NCBI RefSeq assembly: GCF_042453785.1
Contig: NC_091674.1
Span: forward strand, 30,825,501-30,889,500
Direction: 5' to 3'
From: Malus domestica
Taxonomy: Eukaryota > Streptophyta > Magnoliopsida > Rosales > Rosaceae
DNA length: 64,000 nt
A model generated the notes under the pieces. The model searched no databases. It was not told the DNA's origin and saw only the letters and a program-made list of their open reading frames with translations. Both the position numbers and the translations under genes were made by a program. Positions within the stretch are counted from its first letter, which is position 1, and each line of letters starts with the position of its first letter. Shown piece after piece: positions 3,601 to 59,167 of the stretch.

Positions 3601-4650
3601 CTAAAATGCTGCAATGATCAAAGCCATGAAGACGGCAGCAAAACCAGATACGGCGAGTGGGGACAGCACATAAGCTGCACTCTTTGAACTGCCGGGAGAG
3701 TTGCCTGAGGAAGAACCTGGCACAAGCAATCAGTAAAAAACACTAATCTAACTGTGAAGCTATCAAAGTCCGGCATGTTTTCGCTGTCATTTAATCGAGC
3801 AAAGATACTAATCTAGGCGAGACGTGACGAGTTTGATCGCTGATCTGAGACCAAACTAGTTGAGAGTTGAAATGCTGAGATTTCGAATTGAAAAAATAGG
3901 TAAGAAAAAGCATTAGGAACTTACTGTTGTTAGAAGGTGATGTTGTACTGGCTGGTGATGCTGCATCTGTGATGAAGAAAACAGCAAATTAAGATAAACA
4001 ATCGAGAGTATGTTCGCCTGTCTCTCTCTTGATGTCATATGTCATACGAGGAGAGAGAAAAAAAGTAACCCTGATATATACACCCGGTTACACTTAAGAT
4101 TTTGTTCTAATTTCAGAGCCTCGGGTAAAGGTTAATGCCTTTCCTTTCTCGTTTTTCAAACAAGTAGAAAAGAAAGAAAAACATCTATAATCCATGGAAA
4201 CAAACATATGAATCCCACAAACAAAATCCAAAATATTTAAATTTAATTTGATTTAATTAAAAAAAGAAAGAAAGCTCAATCACCCTTTTTGCATACTGAA
4301 ATGTCAGCATTGGCATCACAAGCCTTGGACAGCTTCAAGGCATCACCCTGCGTTATGTTAAAGTTGCTCAACATGTCATCGTTGTTGAAGAGGGTGCAAA
4401 GGCATTCGGTATCATCCGAAACCAACTTCTTGAGTGGCGAGCAGCACATCGAGGGAGCCTTCTCCGGCGCCTTCAAATACGCCTGACAAGGAATCAGTTT
4501 CTGCACGCATTGCATGGAAGAATCACTACCGCCACCAGCAGCGCCCTCCTTATCAGGCAATGCAGTAAGCTTCTGGCCATGGGAGACTCCAAACAACTCG
4601 AAAAGGGACAGAAACAAGAAGAGAAGCAAGTGTTTTGAGATCGAAGCCAT
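3601..4650 (-). CDS. GPI-anchored non-specific lipid-transfer protein (LTPG type)
   Basis: Secreted cell-surface protein of the eight-cysteine lipid-transfer/2S-albumin fold. LTPGs carry lipids to the cuticle or wall. Exons: 4284-4650, 3925-3966, 3601-3716, giving 174 residues. In order: signal peptide (residues ~1-25, leucine-rich, ending VSHG); the 8-Cys motif across ~47-120 in the usual order C-C-CC-CxC-C-C (MQC, IPC, MCC, CLC, KAC, SVC); a Ser/Thr/Pro/Gly linker (ASPASTTSPSNN, GNSPGSSKS) expected to be the GPI omega region; and a hydrophobic tail (VSGFAAVFMALIIAAF). The Ser/Pro linker is split over two small exons, typical for LTPGs. I cannot assign it to one Arabidopsis gene. Confidence 0.88.
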
Positions 4651-6100
4651 TTTTTGGAGAGAGTTTGTGTGTGTTTTTGTTGGTTCAAATGGTTTGGTTT
4701 GTGAGACTTGTTTGGTGATATCTTATATAGTGATGAATGAGTCAAATATGATTCGACAGACGCTAAAAACTTATATATGTGGAGTTTGGTTTTTGGTGAC
4801 GGATTTTGTTGCCAATTCCTTCTCTCACTCCCATTGAGTAGAGGTTTTTTCTGATCCAGCGATTATTTGTTATATGGGTTTTACTTTATTTTCCATGGAA
4901 GTTTTATTTTTATGGTGAAATCCGTTGTGTCATCATCAAGATTTCCTATGATTTTTACCCTCAATCAGAACAAGTATATGCGTACAGAAATGCTCCTCCT
5001 CCGTAACCGTAAGAGCATATTTATATATTTATTTATAATTGCGAGAAATTTTTTAGTGTGGCGGTTAAACTGTTACGTCGTGTTGGTGATTAACGTGTGA
5101 TAACAGACGTGAAGGGCATAGTTGATGTGTCTTAGAGTTAGCATCAATAAATAAATCCACGTGTTATAATATGAATAACATGATAATACTACGTGACAAT
5201 ATGACAGTTACACTGAAAAACTTATCGAATGTTTGCATAACTCTTTGCTTGAAAACAAAGTAAGAAACCTGCAACAACCGAATATTGGCAGTCATGACAT
5301 TATGGTAAGTTGGTAACCAGCTAACAAAGTTACTCAATCAATTTGAATTTGTCATGTTTGAACAATAATTAAGCAAAGTTTACAATACAAATTTTGCTTT
5401 GGTACGAGAATTAACATGAAACAAGGAGTTGCCCCAACCCCTTTACTTGTATTACTGGTCAAACCAAATCTATAAGTTAACCTGAACCCCTGCAAAATAT
5501 TGATGTGTGATTGAAACTGCCTCGTTTATGTTTCATTTTCATGAAAATTCTTCTATGTTTTCGGCGTATCTTATACAATAAGAATTTTAACCGATAAATC
5601 TTTGGTTATTAGATCCTTAATCAAGAATATATCAGTCAAATATCTCAATGTATAGAATATCATGAAGTATACTAAAAAATTGCCTATATTATTTTCAACA
5701 ATCAATCCGAGAAAGATAGGCGATTGATAACGCGAAATTCATGCAAAAAGGTGAAAGGAAGTGATAGAGCTGCCTGAACCCCTCTTTACTTTTACAACTA
5801 GTTGAGACAATGCTACAAGTTACGCTAACCCCTTTATCATATTTTAGATCAAGGTCTTGTGATAAATATTGGAGGAAACTGAAAATATAAGCAATATTTA
5901 GAAAACGAGTACCTGGAAAATGAACAGAATCACAAGATTCCGTACGTTGGGAAGTAGGTTGAATTAAATGTTTGATGTTGTATTAACTTACTAACTGATT
6001 ATCGCTAATCGTTTGAAAGCTACTATAAGCTCGTACTTAATATAGCTTAGCGTGCTTTGTAGTTGGAGATGAGTGTTTGTGTAAGAAATTTGAGTTTGGC
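4651..6100. other. Intergenic, LTPG upstream region, no gene seen
   Basis: AT-rich sequence with only short open frames of unlikely composition. It includes the LTPG promoter side (4651-~5000). Scattered pieces around 5430, 5780 and 6845 share a phrase like 'aacccctttact', which looks like repeat debris. Confidence 0.35.
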
Positions 6101-6192
6101 ACACTAGGTATTGGCACGGCTCAAGCAAATCATGGAGTCGAATCATGAATCGACACGAGGGTAAGCTTGAACCGTGCCAATGCCGAGATTGC
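6100..6192 (-). ncRNA. Candidate MIR171-like hairpin
   Basis: On the minus strand, segments 6185-6165 (5' arm) and 6127-6107 (3' arm) form a ~20 bp stem with one G:U pair and one mismatch. The loop is ~37 nt and contains a small inner stem (GTCGA/TCGAC). The 21 nt at 6127-6107 contains TTGAGCCGTGCCAATA and by eye matches canonical miR171 at 19 of 21 positions. The 5' arm contains ATTGGCACGGTTCAA, like a miR171b/c star strand. I see little further pairing beyond the duplex, unlike strong MIR171 precursors, so it may be decayed or non-functional. The similarity itself is clear. Confidence 0.5.
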
Positions 6193-8075
6193 TATCACAT
6201 GCCTCGACTCAACGTGATCGGAATGGAAGTTCTGCTTCAAACTTCTCCATTATATCATGAGAGCATCGAACTTGTCTTATTAATTTGGGAGCCAAAACTG
6301 AAGCAAACAAGGCAAAAACTTTGGAACATTAAGCAAAACATTCTCCAAGAAATATGAAGCATCTGTCCTTCTCTTCACATTAAGGCCGGCAAAGTTTAAG
6401 AATTATTAAAAACGCAGCTGGTTGATTACAAGAACCAACGTTTTCAACCTTTTTCTTTACTATCATGCAACTTCTCATTTGAATCTTCTTGTTCAACTTT
6501 CTTGATTTTTTTTTCTTATCCTGCAATGTTTTATGATAATCTAAATTATTTATTTTATAGCTCACCTTTTAAAATCAACTATGCCGAAATTCAACCAACT
6601 TCGAAATTGTTTAGCCATCTAACGGTTATCTATTAAATAGACAAACCATATCGTTCAGTTAGCACTAAAATTTTGACAAAATTAATCGAACTACAAAACG
6701 ATTTCTATTTTGGTTTACTTTTTGTGATGTTGGTCTTTAAAAAGTAAACTAAAAAGTAAACAATTCTAATTATCGTGCAACATTGCAAAATGAAAATAAT
6801 CAAGAAGATAGAACGAGCAAATTTGACTGAAAAGTTCGGTAGCATCCCCATCCCACTTACTTGCATTGTTTCAATTGGACACCAAATCTTTTAACCTTTT
6901 CCTGACATTACCCCACTTTGGAGCCATTGCCAACAAATTCCTGTACTGTTAGTGCAGTCTACATGCATAATATTGTTGAATTAATTATAAACTAAATACT
7001 CGTAATTGTCTTGACGGTTTTTAACAAATCCCTTCGTTGTTCTAAGAAAATCCACCAACTCAAAGCTAAGAGACAACACTTTTATCATCAAACAAGAACA
7101 TTTGTTCTTAGTTAAAAGAGGTAACTAAAGTGCTTTTAGACAGTAATTTGCTCCCATACAAAATCAGTGAACCATGAACAGTCGCTTATGTGTGCATCAA
7201 TAAGATTATAAATGTAAAATCATAGTAATCAGAGTCCATCCGGGAATAATATGGTCACGTACTCTAGAACCATAGATGAATGGTTCGTAACCCCCTACAT
7301 TTCTGCTTACAGGCACGCTTTTGTTATAAGCACAATTAATTTTGGAAAAAATTCCACGTGCTTCCATAACCAATAAAACTCTCTTAACCTTTTTTGTCAA
7401 GGGTCGCTAAAAGCTCAGCTGGTTATCAGAAAGCACATTTGAGCTGCCTAGAAGTAATCTGAAACAAGCCCTTAACAATGTTACGAATCATATAGAACTA
7501 ACAAGCTGAAATTGGGTTATTGAGTTTGGCAGGATCAAACTATTGAGTTTCGTTGTTCTTTTTTGTTCGAGCGACATCGTCATAACAACATAATCTAATC
7601 CAATTGAACTTGGGTGCAAAGGAAGAGCATACTGCTCTAGCCAACTTGATTACGTTTAGGGTTCGTTAACTATGTTTTCGTTTACTTTAGAACAACAATG
7701 ACAGACAGATTTGGAAAACTTTAACTCTGCCAAGTTTTCTTCCAATCGCCAGTGAAGAGGAAGTTGTCTCATGTGCACAAATGAAACAAGAACAGAACAT
7801 CATCCGGAAATATCAAAGCTATTTACTGACAAACCAAAGGAGAATCGAAAGCCACAGGGACACACGTAAAAATGCTTTCTCATAATTCTTGCCGTCCGAT
7901 TGTTCACAGCCTTCCAACACTAAAGTTACTTTGATTTTTATCGTCACCTTTTGTCGACATTTCATCCGGCCTCTCCCTTCTTTTATACCATATCACACTT
8001 CAACCCTCAGGTCTCAAAAATTTCGTGAGGCCAGAGCCAAAAAGAAGGGCTCGAACTGAGCATCACTGGTTGAAA
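6193..8075. other. Intergenic, STR upstream region
   Basis: Upstream DNA of the ABCG gene, AT-rich, with no convincing gene. It contains CTTCTTGTTC at 6485-6494, near-matches (reverse of TTCTTGTT) near 7088 and 7786, and retroposon-like debris at 7618-7660. A TATA-like TTTTATACCATAT at ~7981-7993 could serve STR, with the 5' UTR running to 8075. Confidence 0.4.
6485..6494 (+). promoter_or_regulatory. CTTC-type motif upstream of STR
   Basis: Exact CTTCTTGTTC, a 10-mer reported in promoters of arbuscule-induced genes, lies ~1.6 kb before the STR start codon. The same 10-mer also occurs in a TDX intron (12437-12446), so chance is possible. Confidence 0.25.
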
Positions 8076-10879
8076 ATGGCGAAAGTGGCGAAAATGGGGC
8101 GGAATGACACCAACAGAAACCTAGAGAGTCTGTTGGACATGGACAAATCAGTTGCTGCAAAAAGTTCTGTCCCTCTTCGACCCATGAAGATGATTCCGGG
8201 CCACGGACTTGAGTTCAACAACCTTTCGTATAGTGTAACGAAGAAGCTGAAAAAAGACGGGGTTTGGATCAAGAAAGAAGCTTATCTTCTCAATGATATC
8301 TCTGGCCAGGCAGTACGGGGTGAGATCATGGCCATCATGGGACCTAGTGGTGCTGGGAAATCCACATTTCTTGATGCATTGGCGGGACGGATTGCTCAAG
8401 GGAGTTTGGCAGGCTCTGTTAGGATTGATGGAAGAACGGTTAGTGATATGTATAAGTTTTTCTCTGTGCAGGACGTCCAGTTTTTCTTATTTTTTTCCGG
8501 AAACTAAAAGAGAATGAATGCATATATAAAGTTGATTCTTATTTTCAGGTTACTACAAGCTACATGAAGATGGTGTCATCTTACGTTATGCAAGACGACC
8601 AGCTTTTCCCTATGCTGACTGTTTTCGAGACGTTCATGTTTGCAGCTGAGGTTAGGCTTCCCCCCTCCGTTTCGAGGGACGAAAAGAGAAAGAGAGTCCA
8701 TGAACTCCTTGAACAACTTGGCTTGCAGGTAAATTCAAAGTGTCTTTCACACGTATGAACTCAACGGACAAATTATATCTTGATTCTGATGAGGTATATA
8801 TGCAGAGTGCAACGCATACTTACATCGGAGATGAAGGGAGGAGAGGAGTGTCGGGAGGAGAAAGGCGAAGGGTGTCAATTGGAATTGACATCATCCACAA
8901 ACCTTCACTGCTGTTTCTTGACGAACCAACATCTGGTCTCGACTCTACAAGCGCTTTCAGTGTTGTGGAAAAGGTAAAGGAGATCGCTCGAGGTGGTAGC
9001 ATCGTGATGATGACCATCCATCAACCTTCATATCGTATTCAAATGCTCTTGGACCGCATGACTATCCTAGCAAGGTAAAATTTTGCTCAAATGTGTGCTA
9101 AATTTTTATGAATCGTAGGCCTCTCGGTCAGTTAACAATTAAGGGTTGCTAAAATAGACTTACGATTTGACATGTACAATGCTTGTTAACTAAGCTATCT
9201 AATAATGTGGTTGCAGAGGAAGACTGATATATTTGGGAAGCCCGCACGGTCTGTCTGCTCACCTTTTGGGATTTGGAAGGCCAGTTCCGGATGGTGAGAA
9301 TGGCCTCGAGTATCTCCTGGATGTGATTAAAGAATATGATGAATCTACCGTGGGACTAGACCCATTGGTGTTGTACCAACGCGATGGCATCAAACCTGAT
9401 CAGGCATCCAGAAGGCCAGCTCTGAAAACACCAAGAAGAACTCCTTATAATAAGACTCCTGCATCTAAGACTCCTGCATCCAAGCACGCAATCAGCCTCC
9501 GTAGTAAAGCCTATTCCATTGGAAACAGGACGCCTGGACCAGGCCAGTCTGGTCGGTTTGATTATGAGGAAGCTGACGAGGATGTTGAGGATTTCGACAA
9601 CTCCCTTGAAAGGAAGTCGGTTCATATGACACCAATGCATCATCAGAACAGTGGTGTGTATAACCCTCGTCTAGCTTCGCAGTTCTACAAGGACTTCTCT
9701 GTCTGGATATACCATGGAGTCAAGAGAACCCCTCACCGCCCACCATCATGGACTCCTGCTAGAACAGCTGGAGCGACATCAGTCTCAGTCTCGGGTATGA
9801 GGAGTCAAGTTTCGAGCCAATATCCCACACCTCAACTCATCCTGCAGCCACCAAGACACGGTAGTACTAAAACCCCTGTACTTTTCAGCCCTTCCATTGA
9901 TTCCTCCTATGCACCTACTTATGGAGAGTTGGAAATAGAAGACGTGCTTGATGAGCCTGACCTTGGTCCTAAATTTGCAAACCCATGGCTCCGTGAGGTT
10001 GCAGTCCTCTCGTGGCGCACAGCGCTCAATGTGGTTCGCACTCCTGAGCTCTTCCTCTCGCGGGAGATTGTGTTGGCAGTTATGGCACTCATTCTGTCTT
10101 CCCTTTTCCGAAACCTGGGTGGTGACACCTTCAAGGACATAAACCGGCTTCTCAACTTCTACATCTTTGCAGTCTGCCTGGTTTTCTTTTCGTCCAATGA
10201 CGCTGTCCCGACTTTCATCCAAGAAAGGTTCATTTTCATCAGGGAAACTTCTCACAATGCTTATCGTGCTTCTTCGTACGTCATCTCTTCCCTCATTGTG
10301 TACCTCCCATTCTTCGCCATCCAAGGTTACACATTTGCTGCCATTACCAAGTACATTCTTCAACTCAAAAGCAATGTTTTCTACTTCTGGATCATCCTCT
10401 ATGCCTCACTCATCACCACCAACGCTTACGTGATGCTTGTGAGCGCCCTCGTGCCGAGCTACATCACAGGGTATGCTGTTGTGATAGCTACCACAGCTCT
10501 TTTCTTTCTGACTTGCGGCTTTTTCTTGAAGCGCAACCAGATACCGCTTTACTGGAGGTGGGTGCATTACATCTCTGCGATTAAGTACCCGTTTGAGGCA
10601 ATGCTAACAAATGAATTCAAGGGAATACGTTGCTACAATGGCACGGCAGCAGATCTCACCCCCGGACCTTTAGGAGATATAAAGATCAGTCACCTGCACT
10701 TAACATCTCCATTAGTAAGCAAGAATTGCGTGCTTATCGGACAAGATGTTATCTCCTCGATGGATATCAAAACAGATAACATCTGGTATAATGTTGGAAT
10801 CTTGCTAGCTTGGGGTGTTCTATACCGGATCTTATTCTATGTGGTCCTCAGATTCTATTCCAAGAACGAGAGAAAATGA
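8076..10879 (+). CDS. STR: ABCG half-transporter STR (STUNTED ARBUSCULE)
   Basis: Half-size ABCG transporter. In legumes and rice STR pairs with STR2 in the periarbuscular membrane and is needed for arbuscule development, probably exporting lipid to the fungus. Exons 8076-8438, 8549-8728, 8806-9074, 9217-10879 give 824 residues. N-terminal nucleotide-binding domain: Walker [13 protein letters not shown] signature [12 protein letters not shown], Walker [14 protein letters not shown]-loop TIHQPSY. Then a ~200-residue charged, Thr/Pro-rich linker ([38 protein letters not shown]) that marks STR among ABCGs, and a six-helix ABC2 membrane domain ending YSKNERK. The first ATG in a matching N-terminus ([24 protein letters not shown]) was used; M7 is an alternative. 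No disruption is seen. Confidence 0.92.
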
Positions 10880-38835: not shown

Positions 38836-41147
38836 TGACACACCCCGATCCAGAGGATCCAGGTGTGTTGGCCGTCACGTGAGCGTGACGTAACCATAAG
38901 TGCGACACGGAAGCGAAACAACAACATACATAAGCAGGAATTCAAACCAAACTCTAACAGAACAACCTACTAAAATATCCGGACTAGTTATAAAGAAAAC
39001 AAGTGAATTCAGAGCATAGGTTTAAGTGCAGTCAAGTAGGACTAAAATAAAAATACATCACCCTCAGGTGAGTCCTACATGACAAGAGTCTGTCAGAATG
39101 CCGGAAAAAGACCTCGAGAGCCACCAACTGCTAACTAGAACCTGGAGGGGCGCAAAACAAAATGAGTGGGTCATTAAAACCAAAGAGTTTTTCAAAACAT
39201 TTCATTAAAACAATTCTAATCCCCTCACCGTAAAAACCTGTATACTTTCCCAGAAAATAGTATTTATACATATATATATACGCCACATCATAACTCAGCA
39301 CATATCCATCATCATAATATCTCAGAAATGATATGCCATGTCCAAAATATAATCAGAATGCATCAATATCAATCAGGTGAAATAATAAATCAACCGGAGA
39401 CCCTACAATGGTCCTGTACGGCTGATTCTAAAGCTCAACATCCAATCCAACCAGAGTCACCTCGGTGACCTGTACGGTTCAACTCTGCACGTCACTCGGA
39501 ACTACATATAGTAGTCTGTACGATGACAGGTGTATAAATACGCTCTAGTGCTTCTCTCATCAATCATCGGCGCGCATAACTAAGGTCACCCACTAGTTGG
39601 AATCACATCTAGTGATCTGTACAACTAGCATGTCGGAACCCTCACATGGTCTGTACGACATCCACCTACTTGGATCCAAGACGAGCGTGCGGTGTGGTGA
39701 ATAACAATATAAGCACTATCACCTAGGTGCAGGTTATGAGCTTTCAAGGCAATTCACATATATAACTCAGCTGAAATATAAATAAACTCACCTGAACGTC
39801 CACCGCGTCAATTCACATATATATGCATCAGTAATCAAACTAAATATCTCAATGATTTCATGCATGGCAATTAAATTCATAACTTCCATAAAAACGTATT
39901 TTCTGGGAAAAATAACTGTATATAGGTAATACGAAATCAAAACTGCCCACTCACTGATAAGTCGAGGGGTCGTAACCCCCGTGGCGTCCCTGGATGCGCT
40001 CGTCCTCGGGATATACGTCACCTATATGCGAAACAACTATAAAAACGTTAATTTTAAACACATCACCAATAATTCGAAATAATTTCTCATACGGTGCTCA
40101 ATTTGGGTATATGAATATACCACATCGATCTACTCGACGTCACGGACGTCGCATAATTTTTAGAACAATTTTTGGACTCTCCACACGCCCTCACGCGCCG
40201 GCCAGGGCACGGCCCTACGCGCGGCCCACGCGCAGGTGCCCTAACGGAAGTCGCAGACAGCGTCAGGAATATTCCGTCAAAAGCTAACGGTTACCGTTAG
40301 GGTTAACTAACGGTTACCGTTAGGTTTAACTAACGGCGTTAGCATATTCCGTTAACTTTAACGGAATATGCCATTGTCTTCTCCGGTGACTCGCCGGTCG
40401 CCGGTGACGTCGTCGGTTTCTGGGCAAAACTTCCAATTATGGTTTCTCACTCATTTTTCAACCATTTTTCACGAAATTTGTACCAAAATGAAGCTCTAAA
40501 TTCCATTACACCAATTTCAAGGTCTAAATTCCACTAAATTTTACCTGAGGTAGTTCGATAATTCGGCCAACTTTGAATTTCACGATCCCGACGTCCAAAA
40601 CTTCCCAACGAACGTCCCTGAGCTTCCTTAGGACCTCCTAAAGCTCACTGTGAGCTTGGATTGTCCTAAAAATCAACCAACATAAAGTTCATGAATAGTG
40701 CCACATTTGGTCCTCGGGTTTTAAACATGAAAACGAAGGAGTTCTTACCTGAAAATGGTATCTTTGAGTTCGTAGGACACTCACGAACACGATGGTACTA
40801 ATTTCCACGTCGATCCATGAAGTTTGGGGTGGTTTTGGTGTCGTTCGTACAGTTTTTGGGTGAGAGAGAGTGAGAGAGGATCGGGGTAAAGGAGAGAGAG
40901 AGTCCACGGGATAGGGAGAGAGGGATGGAGGGTTTGTGATGTCCCAAAATGATCCCCACCATCCATTTGTCTAAATCCTTAACCAACAAACAATCCAACC
41001 ATTCAAAATTTTATCCAACTTCATCAATTTTTTCCAAAGAAACTTAGGAACCATGAAAATTCAAAACATATTCATACCTTAGTAACGTCGAAGGTAAAAT
41101 CGTCATTTCATGCTCCCGATATATAAATCCCGGGACGGGCTGTGACA
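38836..41147. mobile_element. Solo LTR, ~2.3 kb, with 5 bp target duplication
   Basis: Starts TGACACACCCCGATCC and ends GGGACGGGCTGTGACA (TG...CA). It is flanked on both sides by AGAAG (38831-38835 and 41148-41152). There is no long open frame, primer-binding site pair or second LTR, so it is best read as a solo LTR left by recombination. The size suggests a large Gypsy-type element. The GC-rich part around 40120-40400 contains tandem CTAACGGTTACCGTTAGG units. Confidence 0.82.
40284..40372. repeat. Short tandem palindromic repeats inside the solo LTR
   Basis: CTAACGGTTACCGTTAGG occurs twice in tandem (40284-40327, ~23 bp period), followed by CTAACGGCGTTAG and the inverted pair ATTCCGTTAA/TTAACGGAAT. 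These are dyad-rich sequences of the kind that can bind regulators in LTRs; the role is unknown. Confidence 0.5.
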
Positions 41148-52669: not shown

Positions 52670-52941
52670 TGTTAAGCAACATATTAAGTTGCAGTAATAT
52701 AATATCACAGAGAAGATGAAGAGGTTTTAGAGATAGAAAGATAGAGAGAGAAATGAATTATATTTCTGTACTACAAAGTTACTGAATTACTCTACTTACA
52801 ATTGTTATATAGTTATCTATATTACTTCTTCACTAAGACACCTTATCCTACTTATAACAACCATACTGATCTTATAACAACCACACTGATCTCTTGACAC
52901 ATGTCAATGTATCTAACCATCTATTATCTATACTGTTAACA
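52670..52941 (-). repeat. 3' LTR of the Copia element
   Basis: 272 bp, TG...CA ends. It lies after the RNase H end of the polyprotein in minus-strand reading. Confidence 0.93.
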
Positions 52942-54138
52942 TCCTCCCTCAAGCTCAGGAGAAGGACCACGAAGCCTGAGATTGCAGCAATGAGCACGAA
53001 AAAGTGGTGCAGATAGGCCCTTTGTCAGAATATCAGCAAATTGCTCATTAGAGGAAACAAACTGCATTTGAAGTAACTGTTGGGCAACCCTGTCACGAAC
53101 AAAATGGATATCAATCTCAATATGTTTGGTTCGTTGATGCATCACTGGATTACAAGTCAGAGCAATAGCCGAGAGGTTATCACAAAACATAATGGATGGA
53201 GTCGAAACTGTAATCTGCAGAAAAGTGAGAATCTGTCTTATCCAATCAAGCTCAGCTGCTATTGTAGCAATGGCACGATACTCAGCTTCAGTAGAAGAGC
53301 GAGAGACAGTGTTCTGCTTCTTTGATGACCACGAAATGGGATTAGAACCCAAGAAAACAACCAAACCTGTTGTAGAGCGTCGATCATTCGGATCCCCTGC
53401 CCAGTCCGCATCACTAAATGCATTTAACTCCAAGTCGCCCTTTGTATATTGAAGACCATAATGTTGAGTGCCATTAAGATACCGTAATATCCTTTTGACA
53501 GCCAAGTAATGAGACTCCATGGGACACTGCATGAACTGAGCAACCTGATGTACCGAAAAAGCAATATCAGGTCTTGTGAAAGTTAGATACTGTAAGGCGC
53601 CCACTATACTTCTGTACAATGGAGGATTGTCAAATGGTATGCCATCATCCTTAAGAAGGCGATGAGAAGGCAGACAAGGAGTAGCACAAGACTTGGACTG
53701 ATGCATTTCTGTCTTTGTCAATAAATCGGTGACATATCTATGCTGAGACAGAAACAACCCTTCTGTATTGGTTGTGATTTGAACACCAAGGAAATAATGG
53801 AGTGGTCCCAGATCCTTGATATCAAATTCTGTAGCCAACGCAGAAATGAGCTCTGGAATTACAGAAATGGCACTGCCAGTGATGATGATATCATCCACAT
53901 AGAGAAGAAAAAGTACTATTCCAGAAGAAGTATGTTTGACAAACAATGAAGTGTCGGCATAAGTTGTGTGAAATCCCAAGGAAGGCAAGAACTTAGTAAA
54001 TCTCTCATTCCATGCCCGGGGAGCTTGTTTGAGACCGTATAAAGACTTGTGAAGTTTACACACTGAGGATGAATAGATAGGGTCTACAAACCCCGGAAGC
54101 TGCGCCATATACACTTCTTCTTCCAAAATACCATGCAA
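52936..54138 (-). CDS. Copia polyprotein, C-terminal part (reverse transcriptase, RNase H)
   Basis: Four hundred residues from an internal Met, in the same frame as the longer upstream part. It holds RT motifs KLHKSLYGLKQAPRAW and LLYVDDIIITG (the catalytic Asp pair), then RT thumb and RNase H (NAFSDADWAGDPNDRRSTTG, SSTEAEYRAIA, HIEIDIHFVRD). The stop codon overlaps the 3' LTR edge. Only one in-frame TAG (54160-54162) separates it from the gag-protease-integrase part, so it is a split of one gene. Confidence 0.92.
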   Translation of the reverse strand: MHGILEEEVYMAQLPGFVDPIYSSSVCKLHKSLYGLKQAPRAWNERFTKFLPSLGFHTTYADTSLFVKHTSSGIVLFLLYVDDIIITGSAISVIPELISALATEFDIKDLGPLHYFLGVQITTNTEGLFLSQHRYVTDLLTKTEMHQSKSCATPCLPSHRLLKDDGIPFDNPPLYRSIVGALQYLTFTRPDIAFSVHQVAQFMQCPMESHYLAVKRILRYLNGTQHYGLQYTKGDLELNAFSDADWAGDPNDRRSTTGLVVFLGSNPISWSSKKQNTVSRSSTEAEYRAIATIAAELDWIRQILTFLQITVSTPSIMFCDNLSAIALTCNPVMHQRTKHIEIDIHFVRDRVAQQLLQMQFVSSNEQFADILTKGLSAPLFRAHCCNLRLRGPSPELEGGC

Positions 54139-54159
54139 AAAAGCATTTTTGACATCGAG

Positions 54160-57100
54160 CTACCGTAAACCCCAACCATAATGTGCAGCTAAGGCAAGAA
54201 CAAGACGTACTGTAGTAGGCTTAACAACAGGACTGAAGGTTTCACCATAATCGATTCCTGCCTCTTGATTGAACCCCTTGGCCACAAGCCGAGCCTTGTA
54301 TCTCGAAATGGTACCATCAACATGTCTCTTGATCTTAAAAACCCACTTGCACCCCACAAGGTTTCTGTTTGATGGTAAAAGAACTAAGGACCAAGTTTTC
54401 TGGGAATGCAAGGCTTGTAGTTCCTCCTCCATGGCTTTATACCAAACTGGCGATTTAAGAGCAGATTTATAAGACAGTGGTTCAATCTGAGATAAGTCAA
54501 CGTCTGTAGTTGGAGAAGTCAGAGCACTAAATGCTTTCTTCTTGACAATACCACTCTTCGATCGTGTTTGCATAGGATGCAAGTTAAATGGAGGTAGAGG
54601 AAGAATGACTTGTAAACTTTCTGGAAGAAACTCAGGAGCCACAGGAATGGAAGGAGAAGTACACTGAGGGACATTGCAAGTAATGGGGGAGCTGATGTCG
54701 TCGGTTGCTGTTGGCTGAGACAGTTCAGGTGCAGGAGAAAGATTGGAAGATCTAGGAGTGGCAGTAGCAGTGCGAGGTATAACACTAAGGCTAGGCACGG
54801 ATGAATTAGATGACACTCCAACAAGCAGGTTATCCCGTGTAATAGACACTGGATTCATTGGTATTTTAGGAACAGACTGTGAAGTAGAAACAGATGACTT
54901 TTGGACAAGAGAGGAATAAGGGAAATCACACTCATCAAATATAACATGTCGTGAAATATAAATTCTCTTTGAGCTAACTTCAAAACAGATGTACCCCTTG
55001 TATTTAGATGCATAACCCAGAAAGATACATAATTTGGTTTTAGGTTGCAGCTTGTTACTAGTATAAGGCTTTAAGAATGGGAAACATGCACAACCAAAGA
55101 TTCTAAGGTGTTGAACATCTGGAACTGAATTGAACAGAACCTCAAATGGTGACTGATTATTTGTAGTTGAAGAAGGCATCCTATTTATAAGGTATATCGC
55201 AGTTTGACAAGCAAATGACCAGAAAGATGCTGGAAGATGTGCATTCTGTAACAATGTGATGGAGGTTTCAACTACATGCCTATGTTTGCGTTCTGCCAGC
55301 CCATTTTGTTCTAGAGTATGGGGACAAGAGATTTGATGAGTGATCCCTTTATCTAACAGAAAAGATTGAAGAGTGTGACTTGTATATTCCCCACCCCCAT
55401 CACTTTGTAAAGTTTTAACAGAAACTGCAAAGTGATTAAAAATGAACTGATAGAAACCAATGAACACAGAGCAGACTTCACTTTTATTATGTAGAGGAAA
55501 AAGCCAACAATATCGAGTACACTCATCAATGAATGTCACGTAGTATTTAAAACCATCAATAGAGGTACAAGGAGCAGGGCCCCAGACATCACTATGAACT
55601 ATTTGAAAAGGATTTACAGCCTTAGACACAGAGGATGAAAATGGGAGCTTGCTGAATTTTCCTTGTAAACAAGAATGACACACAGAAGATGAGACATCAT
55701 AGGGGACTGAGATATTGGACGTTCTAAGAATAGTAAACAAAATGGAATTGGATGGGTGACCTAGTCTGCTATGCCATAAATTGGAATGTACTTTCTGTCC
55801 AAGAAATGCAGTTGTAGAGGCTTGATTCTGAATTGCAGCTGGTCTTGACATTGGTAGTGGATATAACCCATTACTGCACTGGCCCTTGTACAGAATCCTC
55901 CCTGTGGCTTTGTCCTGAATCCAGAAAGTAAAAGCATCAAAGATTAGCCAACAATGGTTATCTAGACAAATTCTGTGCACAGACAACAAATTCTGAGTAA
56001 TTTTGGGAACATATAAAATGGAATTAAGCTTCAAATTTTGAGTAGGGGTCCGAATGATAGAAGAACCAATGTGTGAAATGGGTAAACCTGCACCATTCGC
56101 AGTTTGAATGGTCTCTGTGGATGAGAATGAAGTAGCCAAGGAAAGATTCTGTAAGTCTGCAGTGAGGTGATTTGTTGCCCCTGAATCTGTAATCCAGAAC
56201 TGCTGAGATGAATCATTTGATGGTGGAGTGGATGAGGAAGAGTTTACATGCATTGCCGTCATTTGAGAAGCAGAACCAGAAATATTGGCATTTCGAAAAT
56301 GACAGAACTGAGCAGTGTGATTCTTCTTGCCACATATTTGACAACCATCAACTACAACAACATCAGTATTTCGAAACCGACAGGTATCAGCAAGGTGACC
56401 AAATTTTCCACATATTTGGCAAGCTGATTGGGTTGGAGGGGCACCAAGAATACCAGGAGCAGGAGTTGTATAGGTATTTCGTGAATTCCCAAATCGAGAA
56501 TTAGTATTATAGTTGAATTTTCCTCGACCCTTGTTCTTGATGTAATTATTCTTGAAATATGTATGTTGCTGAAGTGGGACACCAGAGACACCAGAAGATT
56601 GATGTGGTGAATACCCGGGACTTGGATTGGCAGAAACCCCTTGACTATGACCACCAGATTCAGAGTTCTTGGCAATCATGGCAGACAAAAATGGCGTAAC
56701 AGCTGTATTCTCAATCATTGCTTCTTCAGCAAGCAACTGAGACCTCAGATCCTTAAGAGAAATAACATTCTCTCGACCTCGAATGATAGACCGGATGGTA
56801 TTATATTCTCCCGATAAGCCATTAAGAGTGAGAATGACAATATCATCATCCTCGAAATGAACTCCGGCAGCTGCCAAATAATCACGAGCAGCCTTGATCC
56901 TCTGCAAGAATTGAGATATAGAATCAGGGCCTTTCTTGATATTCTGTAACTCAGACTTCATCTGGAATATGGTTGCACGAGTAACAACAGAAAATTGCTC
57001 CTTGAGACGAATCCATAGATCCCGAGCACTGGTGCTTCCAATGACACATGAAATAGCGGATGGAGAAAGGGTGACAGTAATAAGCTGCATCAAAGCTCGA

Positions 57101-57384
57101 TCATGCATCTTCCAGATCTTGTATGCATCTGTTTCAATTCGGGACGAGGAATCTCCAGAATCTAAATCAGAATCGCCAGACCCAGAAGAGCCAAACTGTG
57201 CAGGACAAGGACTAGAACCATCCAAGAACCCCATAATTCCATGACCTTCAAGTAGGAATTGCATCTGAAAGTGCCATGTGAGGTAGTTGGAATCATCAAG
57301 CTTCACAGTCACCGACGTAGGAACGGTGGAGATAAGAGATGTGATAGGCGATTGCACAATTTGTAGTTGATTGGCAGTCACCAT
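54160..57384 (-). CDS. Copia polyprotein, N-terminal part (gag, protease, integrase, RT start)
   Basis: 1074 residues: gag with UBN2-type N-terminus ([20 protein letters not shown]), two CCHC zinc knuckles ([28 protein letters not shown], ~325-365), protease [11 protein letters not shown] (~400), GAG-pre-integrase [10 protein letters not shown], integrase (HSDVWGPAP, a DD-E-type core with [11 protein letters not shown]), and the start of RT ([30 protein letters not shown]). It ends at an in-frame TAG just before the LDVKNAFL RT motif. Apart from this the frame is open, consistent with recent activity. Confidence 0.93.
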
Positions 57385-57610
57385 TGCAAAATTGTCGAAG
57401 AAGAGTTCTCACAGGAAATGTATCGAACACGTAGAGGGCACGATTGCGCAGACGAAGAATCACAACCCGAAGAACTATGAAAAATTCCCAGATCAGAAGA
57501 ACACAACAGAGAAAGAAAGAATCTTGAGCGGCGGAAGTAAAAATCAACAATTCCAAGATCAGAAAAAAAAACCTTTCAAGCACGTAGAGCTTGATCGGCG
57601 AATGATACCA

Positions 57611-57882
57611 TGTTAAGCAACATATTAAGTTGCAGTAATGTAATATCACAGAGAAGATGAAGAGGTTTTAGAGATAGAAAGATAGAGAGAGAAATGAATT
57701 ATATTTCTGTACTACAAAGTTACTGAATTACTCTACTTACAATTGTTATATAGTTATCTATATTACTTCTTCACTAAGACACCTTATCCTACTTATAACA
57801 ACCATACTGATCTTATAACAACCACACTGATCTCTTGACACATGTCAATGTATCTAACCATCTATTATCTATACTGTTAACA
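57611..57882 (-). repeat. 5' LTR of the Copia element
   Basis: 272 bp partner of the left LTR; carries the promoter for the element in minus orientation. The tRNA-iMet-like primer site lies immediately to its left on the plus strand. Confidence 0.93.
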
Positions 57883-58305: not shown

Positions 58306-59167
58306 TGTTGTGCGGAAGCGGCATTCAACTGTAAGTGAATAGTAAGACAGAACAGAATAAAACCAACACCAACAAGAACACCAAGATTTATACTGGTTCG
58401 GCAATGCCTACATCCAGTTTGGAGACGACGGAGTATTCCACTATAATCAATGAGAACATACAATAGTGTTGATCACTCAATTTCCCAAAGACCCGAATAA
58501 CCCAAGCTCTCACACTTACAATAGGAAGAGAAAACCAAAAATACAAAGCAAGACAATTTGAGAAAATTCTTCTCTATGCCGAATGGCTTCTTGCTATTTT
58601 TCTCACTTCCTTGTTCTCCTCTTGTCTCTACTCAATGCTTATGAGCTACACCTTGCTCTCCTTTTATAACCAAAGAAAAGCTTCTCAAAGACATCAATGG
58701 CCAAAGGGCTAACATCATCGGCAATGCCTACATCCAGTTTGGAGACGACAGAGTATTCCACTATAATCAATGAGAACATACAATAGTGTTTATCACTCAA
58801 TTTCCCAAAGACCCGAATAACCCAAGCTCTCACACTTACAATAGGAAGAGAAAACCAAAAATACAAAGCAAGACAATTTGAGAAAATTCTTCTCTATGCC
58901 GAATGGCTTCTTGCTATTTTTCTCTCTTCCTTGTTCTCCTCTTGTCTCTACTCAATGCTTATGAGCTACACCTTGCTCTCCTTTTATAGCCAAAGAAAAG
59001 CTTCTCAAAGACATCAATGGTCAAAGGGCTAACATCAAGTCAAAAAGAGTTAGGCACAATTGCATGCATTTTGTTTCCCACATGTAGCATGCCATCCAAC
59101 AATTTTGACCACAAAAGTAGCCGAAATTTTTTGATCTTTGACTACAAGTTTGAGTCAATAATCAACA
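58306..59167 (-). mobile_element. LTR of a truncated retroelement with 320 bp internal duplication
   Basis: Starts TGTTGTGCGGAAGC and ends AATCAACA (TGTTG...CAACA). It is followed by a purine/pyrimidine tract (ATCTCCACCTTGGCTC) of the kind that adjoins LTRs in minus orientation, then ~290 bp of internal-looking sequence to ~59460. Within it, 58399-58718 is repeated as 58719-59037 with only a handful of substitutions. No second LTR was found. Confidence 0.6.

Follow-up and report, generated by a model that had tools for sequence, protein, structure and literature searches.

A probable, somewhat diverged MIR171 gene lies head-to-head with an STR-like transporter gene in Malus domestica

Introduction

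Plant microRNAs are characterised by a miRNA/miRNA* duplex that contains few mismatches (five at most) and no large bulge. In the miR171 family, the fragments GAGCCG and CAAUAU occur in the vast majority of sequences, and some members lack one or both of them (PMC10340099). Members of the family may differ among themselves by a three-base offset (PMC6358981). The HAM site GAUAUUGGCGCGGCUCAAUCA is conserved across 37 orthologues from 13 species (PMC3727082).

Members of the miR171 family are reported to influence mycorrhiza in different directions (PMC6296096, PMC4115173, PMC10340099, PMC10815302). The tomato miR171 TTGAGCCGTGCCAATATCACA rises in arbuscular mycorrhizal (AM) roots, and degradome data support NSP2 and scarecrow-like genes as its targets; another tomato member, miR171i, falls in mycorrhizal roots (PMC4814767). 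In Nicotiana attenuata, one miR171b-3p variant was seen only in colonised roots (PMC6296096). Medicago miR171h targets NSP2, and the activity of the MIR171h promoter has been monitored in the roots of this plant (PMC4115173). Medicago miR171b is said in reviews to protect LOM1 (PMC10340099, PMC10815302).

The promoters of AM-related genes contain several described elements. CYCLOPS activates the RAM1, CBX1, and WRI3 promoters by way of the AMCYC-RE, whose core is GCCGGC; the core of the MYCS element is TTCTTGTT, and the 2,150-bp STR promoter tested in the same study contains two AW-boxes and one MYCS element (PMC12130850). AM-induced promoters are enriched in GCCGGC, usually less than 500 bp from the ATG, and the plain CTTC element is just moderately enriched in them (PMC4274732). 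The definition of the AW-box and the MtSTR promoter region -97/-259 are taken from PMC10505183. 

Here we describe a locus in a stretch of 64,000 nucleotides (64 kb) of Malus domestica DNA, referred to as the window. A preliminary description of the window had pointed to a MIR171-like hairpin near a gene that it named STR.

Results and discussion

The hairpin and its mature registers

The MIR171 precursor hairpin is located at positions 6095–6194 on the minus strand and was delimited by its match to the Rfam family RF00643 (MIR171_1) and by its fold. The match covers model positions 1–101 of 101 (Rfam 15) and scores 53.1 bits, which places the hairpin in the family by the covariance-model gathering cut-off of 48; the excess of about 5 bits is modest. 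No other match reaches the Rfam gathering cut-off within the 64-kb window. The minus-strand RNA of 6095–6200 folds with an energy of -46.7 kcal/mol, compared to a mean of -24.35 (sd 3.27) for shuffled sequences (z -6.83), and none of 200 shuffles folds as well. The fold thus supports the duplex between the two arms, which the preliminary description had put at about 20 bp. The duplex is real; it consists of 17 contiguous pairs, one A/C mismatch, and two further pairs. The stem underneath the guide duplex is short and interrupted.

The candidate mature miR171 in the 3' arm, UGCUUGAGCCGUGCCAAUACC, is encoded at 6107–6127 on the minus strand and is referred to as register A. The DNA of 6127–6107 reads TGCTTGAGCCGTGCCAATACC and differs from the canonical TGATTGAGCCGTGCCAATATC at two of 21 positions, so the coordinates and strand given previously are right. 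It is the sole match to TGATTGAGCCGTGCCAATATC with up to three mismatches in the 64 kb, and 0 of 100 shuffled sequences contained any such match. The 15-nt core TTGAGCCGTGCCAAT is present without mismatches at 6124–6110 (minus), which puts the Rfam consensus core UUGAGCCGUGCCAAU on the 3' arm. The predicted miRNA* of register A, CAUUGGCACGGUUCAAGCUUA, lies in the 5' arm at 6162–6182 (minus) and was assigned by giving the folded duplex 3' overhangs of 2 nt. In the duplex of register A, guide positions 1 and 19 of 21 are unpaired and there is no bulge, in agreement with the plant foldback criterion. The alternative mature sequence, register B, UUGAGCCGUGCCAAUACCUAG, is offset by three bases (6104–6124, minus) and has in its favour a likeness to the tomato miRNA and a lower HAM-site penalty of 2.0. 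We infer the choice between the two registers from sequence comparison.

The hairpin resembles the canonical miR171 members (UGAUUGAGCCGUGCCAAUAUC, UUGAGCCGUGCCAAUAUCACG; RF00643) in its 3'-arm guide, the core UUGAGCCGUGCCAAU, the U-G wobble, and the full-length match to the model. It differs from them by C in place of A at guide position 3 and C in place of U at position 20, with the star changed to match. GAGCCG is present in the mature sequence, whereas CAAUAC replaces the CAAUAU of canonical MIR171_1 members, and consensus pair 13/87 is a C/A mismatch. When this one sequence is compared with the Rfam consensus, with no family tree involved, it retains 15 of the 18 pairs unaltered. Two more, at consensus columns 12/88 and 29/71, have new bases on both sides and still pair, and the last, 13/87, has lost its pairing. 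The double changes that keep the pairing would suggest, and only suggest, that selection maintained the hairpin while its sequence diverged.

The full-length Rfam match, the exact core, and the two paired double changes bear out the MIR171-like hairpin of the preliminary description. The minus strand very probably carries here a genuine MIR171 gene that has diverged to some extent, and the product of that gene is very probably a slightly diverged new member of the known family. Registers A and B and the star were not found in the main texts of 5.39 million open papers. The exact mature 20-mer has no match in the prokaryotic or viral collections of genome contigs. As a control, the 18-mer pattern TTGAGCCGTGCCAATAYC, which is common to the mature sequence, matched five stretches of viral contigs. 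None of the five reaches the Rfam gathering cut-off, and a short match to the mature sequence is therefore insufficient in itself for a MIR171 call.

The mature sequence was also compared with members from species in which a mycorrhizal role has been described. Medicago miR171h presumably starts with CGAGCCGAAUC, a string that occurs in published papers; the isoform described here has a GUGCC centre instead. We take Medicago miR171b to be UGAUUGAGCCGCGUCAAUAUC, the centre of which is missing here as well. This miR171b isoform is one wobble short of full pairing with the HAM site by simple scoring, so that its comparison is no test of LOM1 protection. Both Medicago miRNAs share with the present one the family and a relevance to mycorrhiza (PMC4115173 for miR171h; PMC10340099 and PMC10815302 for miR171b). 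Register B shares its first 16 nucleotides with the AM-induced tomato miR171 TTGAGCCGTGCCAATATCACA and differs from it at positions 17, 19, 20, and 21 (PMC4814767).

Alternative readings of the hairpin

The locus is best explained as a diverged MIR171 paralogue that would produce a 21-nt guide from the 3' arm and target GRAS mRNAs of the HAM/SCL6 type, a reading to which we assign a probability of about 0.8. A degenerate MIR171 paralogue that is not expressed, and that adjoins the STR-like gene by chance, is an unlikely alternative that still has to be weighed, since a decaying paralogue would look similar to this hairpin. The base changes at guide positions 3 and 20, the broken pair 13/87, and the modest Rfam score are what decay could leave behind, and the lack of either register from the main texts of open papers, the part of the literature searched, points weakly in the same direction. 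However, two double changes that preserve pairing and a run of 17 unbroken pairs are not the first products of decay.

The two remaining possibilities concern the strand and the origin of the hairpin. Transcription of a miRNA gene from the plus strand is very improbable, even though the plus strand of 6095–6200 folds slightly better than the minus strand, with -49.6 kcal/mol. Because both strands fold, the energy is no test of strand, and fold stability was dropped as a discriminator. The Rfam MIR171_1 score of the plus strand is 45.6, below the gathering cut-off that the minus strand exceeds, and the plus-strand copy of the 15-nt core, in the other arm, carries one mismatch. Furthermore, the U-G wobble of the family at consensus columns 24/76 is retained on the minus strand and reads C/A on the plus strand. 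The minus strand was chosen as the putative gene strand because of its exact core and better Rfam score, and it appears to be the better reading. Least probable of all is that the hairpin has no relation to MIR171 and is an inverted repeat formed by chance or a hairpin of the MITE type. With the settings chosen, the window contains 43 pairs of inverted repeats, including one with 46-nt arms and 91% complementarity at 2772–2919. However, the exact miR171 core is correctly placed within the hairpin, and the hairpin's standing as the sole match at the Rfam gathering cut-off disfavours a chance or MITE origin.

Predicted target pairing

The pairing of the diverged MIR171 guide with the HAM site was scored by Allen-type penalties, with the three bases of register B that extend past the site left unscored. 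Register A has a penalty of 4.0, the worst among the six guides scored, register B has 2.0, and the two canonical forms have 1.0 each. The duplex energies are -29.0 kcal/mol for register A and -28.7 kcal/mol for register B, compared to -37.1 and -33.8 kcal/mol for the canonical forms of A and B, respectively. The predicted pairing of both registers is weaker than that of the canonical miRNAs but extensive. The substitution at guide position 3 of register A lies outside register B, for which reason register B would guide better. In the proposed mechanism, DCL1 would cut the MIR171 transcript so that the 3' arm yields a miR171 of 21 nt, and the register beginning UUGAGCC would be a better usable guide than that beginning UGCUUGAGCC. 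The miRNA would then direct AGO1 cleavage of mRNAs of the HAM/SCL6 (LOM) class of GRAS transcription factors.

The neighbouring genes

The gene on the other side of the intergenic region, at 8076–10879 on the plus strand, looks like a half-size ABCG transporter gene of the STR type. Its splice model has four exons (8076–8438, 8549–8728, 8806–9074, and 9217–10879), which are open up to a single terminal stop and encode 824 amino acids; three first donors keep the frame, and the 824-residue version was chosen for its apparent resemblance to Medicago STR. The Pfam domains ABC_tran and ABC2_membrane were detected on separate pieces of the gene. The four exon pieces all match the ABCG-type NCBIfam model TIGR00955 in order, with scores below the whole-protein cut-off, and in the PDB the last exon matches ABCG16 best. 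The open frame thus has the half-size ABCG layout of one ATPase followed by one ABC2 membrane domain. From its apparent resemblance to the Medicago protein, the gene is putatively STR rather than another ABCG transporter. In the prokaryotic and viral contig collections, the last exon gave 33 short-pattern stretches, none of which was confirmed by tblastn.

The distance from the hairpin end at 6194 to 8076, where the model of the STR-like gene has its start codon, is 1882 bp. The 1.9 kb stated in the preliminary description is thus accurate, with one correction: MIR171 (minus) and the STR-like gene (plus) are on opposite strands and diverge head-to-head. The promoter of MIR171 would sit in the 1.9 kb that it has in common with the divergent gene. 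On the other side, the downstream neighbour of MIR171, in the same direction, is a lipid-transfer-protein reading frame (stop to stop, 4276–4722, minus) with a match to Pfam LTP_2 on 4279–4653 (E 1.7e-14). No report of linkage between a MIR171 and an STR gene was found in the main texts of papers that were searched.

Motifs in the intergenic region and possible co-regulation with STR

The intergenic region 6195–8075 was searched with eight patterns, six of the mycorrhiza type, including three overlapping forms of MYCS, and two of the TATA type. The palindrome GCCGGC, which has no strand, is present at 6385–6390, 191 bp upstream of the hairpin and 1686 bp from the STR-like start (one seen, 0.05 expected, uncorrected P 0.050; three in the whole window). 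The MYCS core plus C, TTCTTGTTC, is at 6486–6494 on the plus strand, 292 bp upstream of the hairpin (one seen, 0.06 expected, uncorrected P 0.063; two in the whole window). The STR-like start is over 1.5 kb away from either core. When the window is divided into 6370 overlapping segments of 300 bp, 19 of these contain both. In segments of 1,880 bp, GCCGGC is accompanied by TTCTTGTT in 212 of 6212 and by TTCTTGTTC in 177 of 6212, about 3%, so that the pair is not rare at the intergenic scale. The motif signal is modest.

The other elements add little. One AW-box, CGGAAATATCAAAG, is located at 7805–7818 on the plus strand, at -271 to -258 relative to the start codon of the STR-like gene model, and is at the level of chance, since 0.92 are expected in 6195–8075. 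P1BS was not seen in 6195–8075 (0.46 expected), and the long CTTC form GACTTGTTC does not occur in the 64-kb window. Myc2-like sites with up to three mismatches are absent from 6195–8075 and number 11 in the window, where 16.38 are expected; the nearest to the locus, at 6091–6103, is not upstream of the hairpin. A TATAAAA sequence is present at 6553. Small minus-strand ORFs upstream of the hairpin were considered as miPEPs (ATG at 6478, 32 aa; 6362, 35 aa; 6250, 13 aa; and others) and set aside, as nothing supports them. A scan for promoters of the bacterial type was discarded because it is not meaningful for plant DNA. A further remark, on the literature and not on the window, concerns the Myc1 element GGGGTTCGAACCCC: it is presumably similar to the tRNA-gene B box, which might account for its conservation. 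Myc1 is reported as a mycorrhizal element (PMC4274732).

An extension compatible with the diverged-paralogue reading is that MIR171 responds to mycorrhiza and is co-regulated with STR. In colonised cells, MIR171 would be activated by CCaMK-CYCLOPS through GCCGGC and by RAM1-WRI complexes through the MYCS core, and miR171 would trim transcripts of HAM/SCL6 or NSP2 at the sites of lipid export by STR. The location of both cores in the 300 bp immediately upstream of the hairpin speaks for this, as does the proximity of GCCGGC to the hairpin rather than to STR, in keeping with its usual distance from the start codon in AM promoters (PMC4274732). Both the tomato miR171 with its NSP2 and scarecrow-like targets (PMC4814767) and the Nicotiana attenuata variant seen only in colonised roots (PMC6296096) are in its favour. 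However, the pair of cores is common in segments of intergenic length, six AM-type patterns were tried without correction, and the cores would fall inside the transcript if TATAAAA at 6553 were used as its start. P1BS, GACTTGTTC, and Myc2-like sites are lacking as described above, and the plain CTTC element is just moderately enriched in AM-induced promoters (PMC4274732). The single AW-box is expected by chance, whereas the published STR promoter has two, and the motifs could serve STR instead because the tested STR promoter also has a MYCS element (PMC12130850). The isoform, moreover, is unlike Medicago miR171h and miR171b as given above.

In view of this evidence, a mycorrhizal response of the MIR171 promoter is rather unlikely, and its co-regulation with STR, to which the same low probability applies, is a plausible and specific hypothesis. 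The stronger form, in which a symbiosis-dedicated MIR171 would share a divergent promoter with STR, and CYCLOPS and RAM1-WRI would drive both lipid export and a GRAS-restraining miR171 in the same cells, is unlikely. If it were true, the linkage between MIR171 and STR would persist in AM hosts and vanish with STR in non-hosts. The literature searched contained no MIR171 gene tied to CYCLOPS or RAM1-WRI sites, and PMC12130850, on those sites, makes no mention of miR171. Likewise, miR171 combined with AMCYC and synteny terms gave no match in main texts. The region between MIR171 and STR, with its CYCLOPS-type and MYCS-type cores, offers a concrete locus at which to ask whether a miR171 gene is under the direct control of the core symbiosis transcription factors.

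Other features of the window

The inverted repeat at 2772–2919 is strong, with a 56-nt spacer between its arms, and is below the Rfam gathering cut-off; it may be a MITE or a hairpin specific to this species. At 40284–40342 there is a short array in which a 23-nt unit, CTAACGGTTACCGTTAGGGTTAA, palindromic in part, is present in about 2.3 copies. An LTR retrotransposon, judged by eye from its ORFs to be of the Copia type, extends from 52670 to 57882. Its two LTRs of 272 nt (TGTTAA...TTAACA) are identical, and it is flanked by an apparent target-site duplication, CTTGT; the element looks recently inserted. It contains minus-strand stop-to-stop frames of 1082 and 407 amino acids. About 0.5 kb past the element, at 58398–59037, a 320-nt unit is tandemly duplicated with 98% matches.
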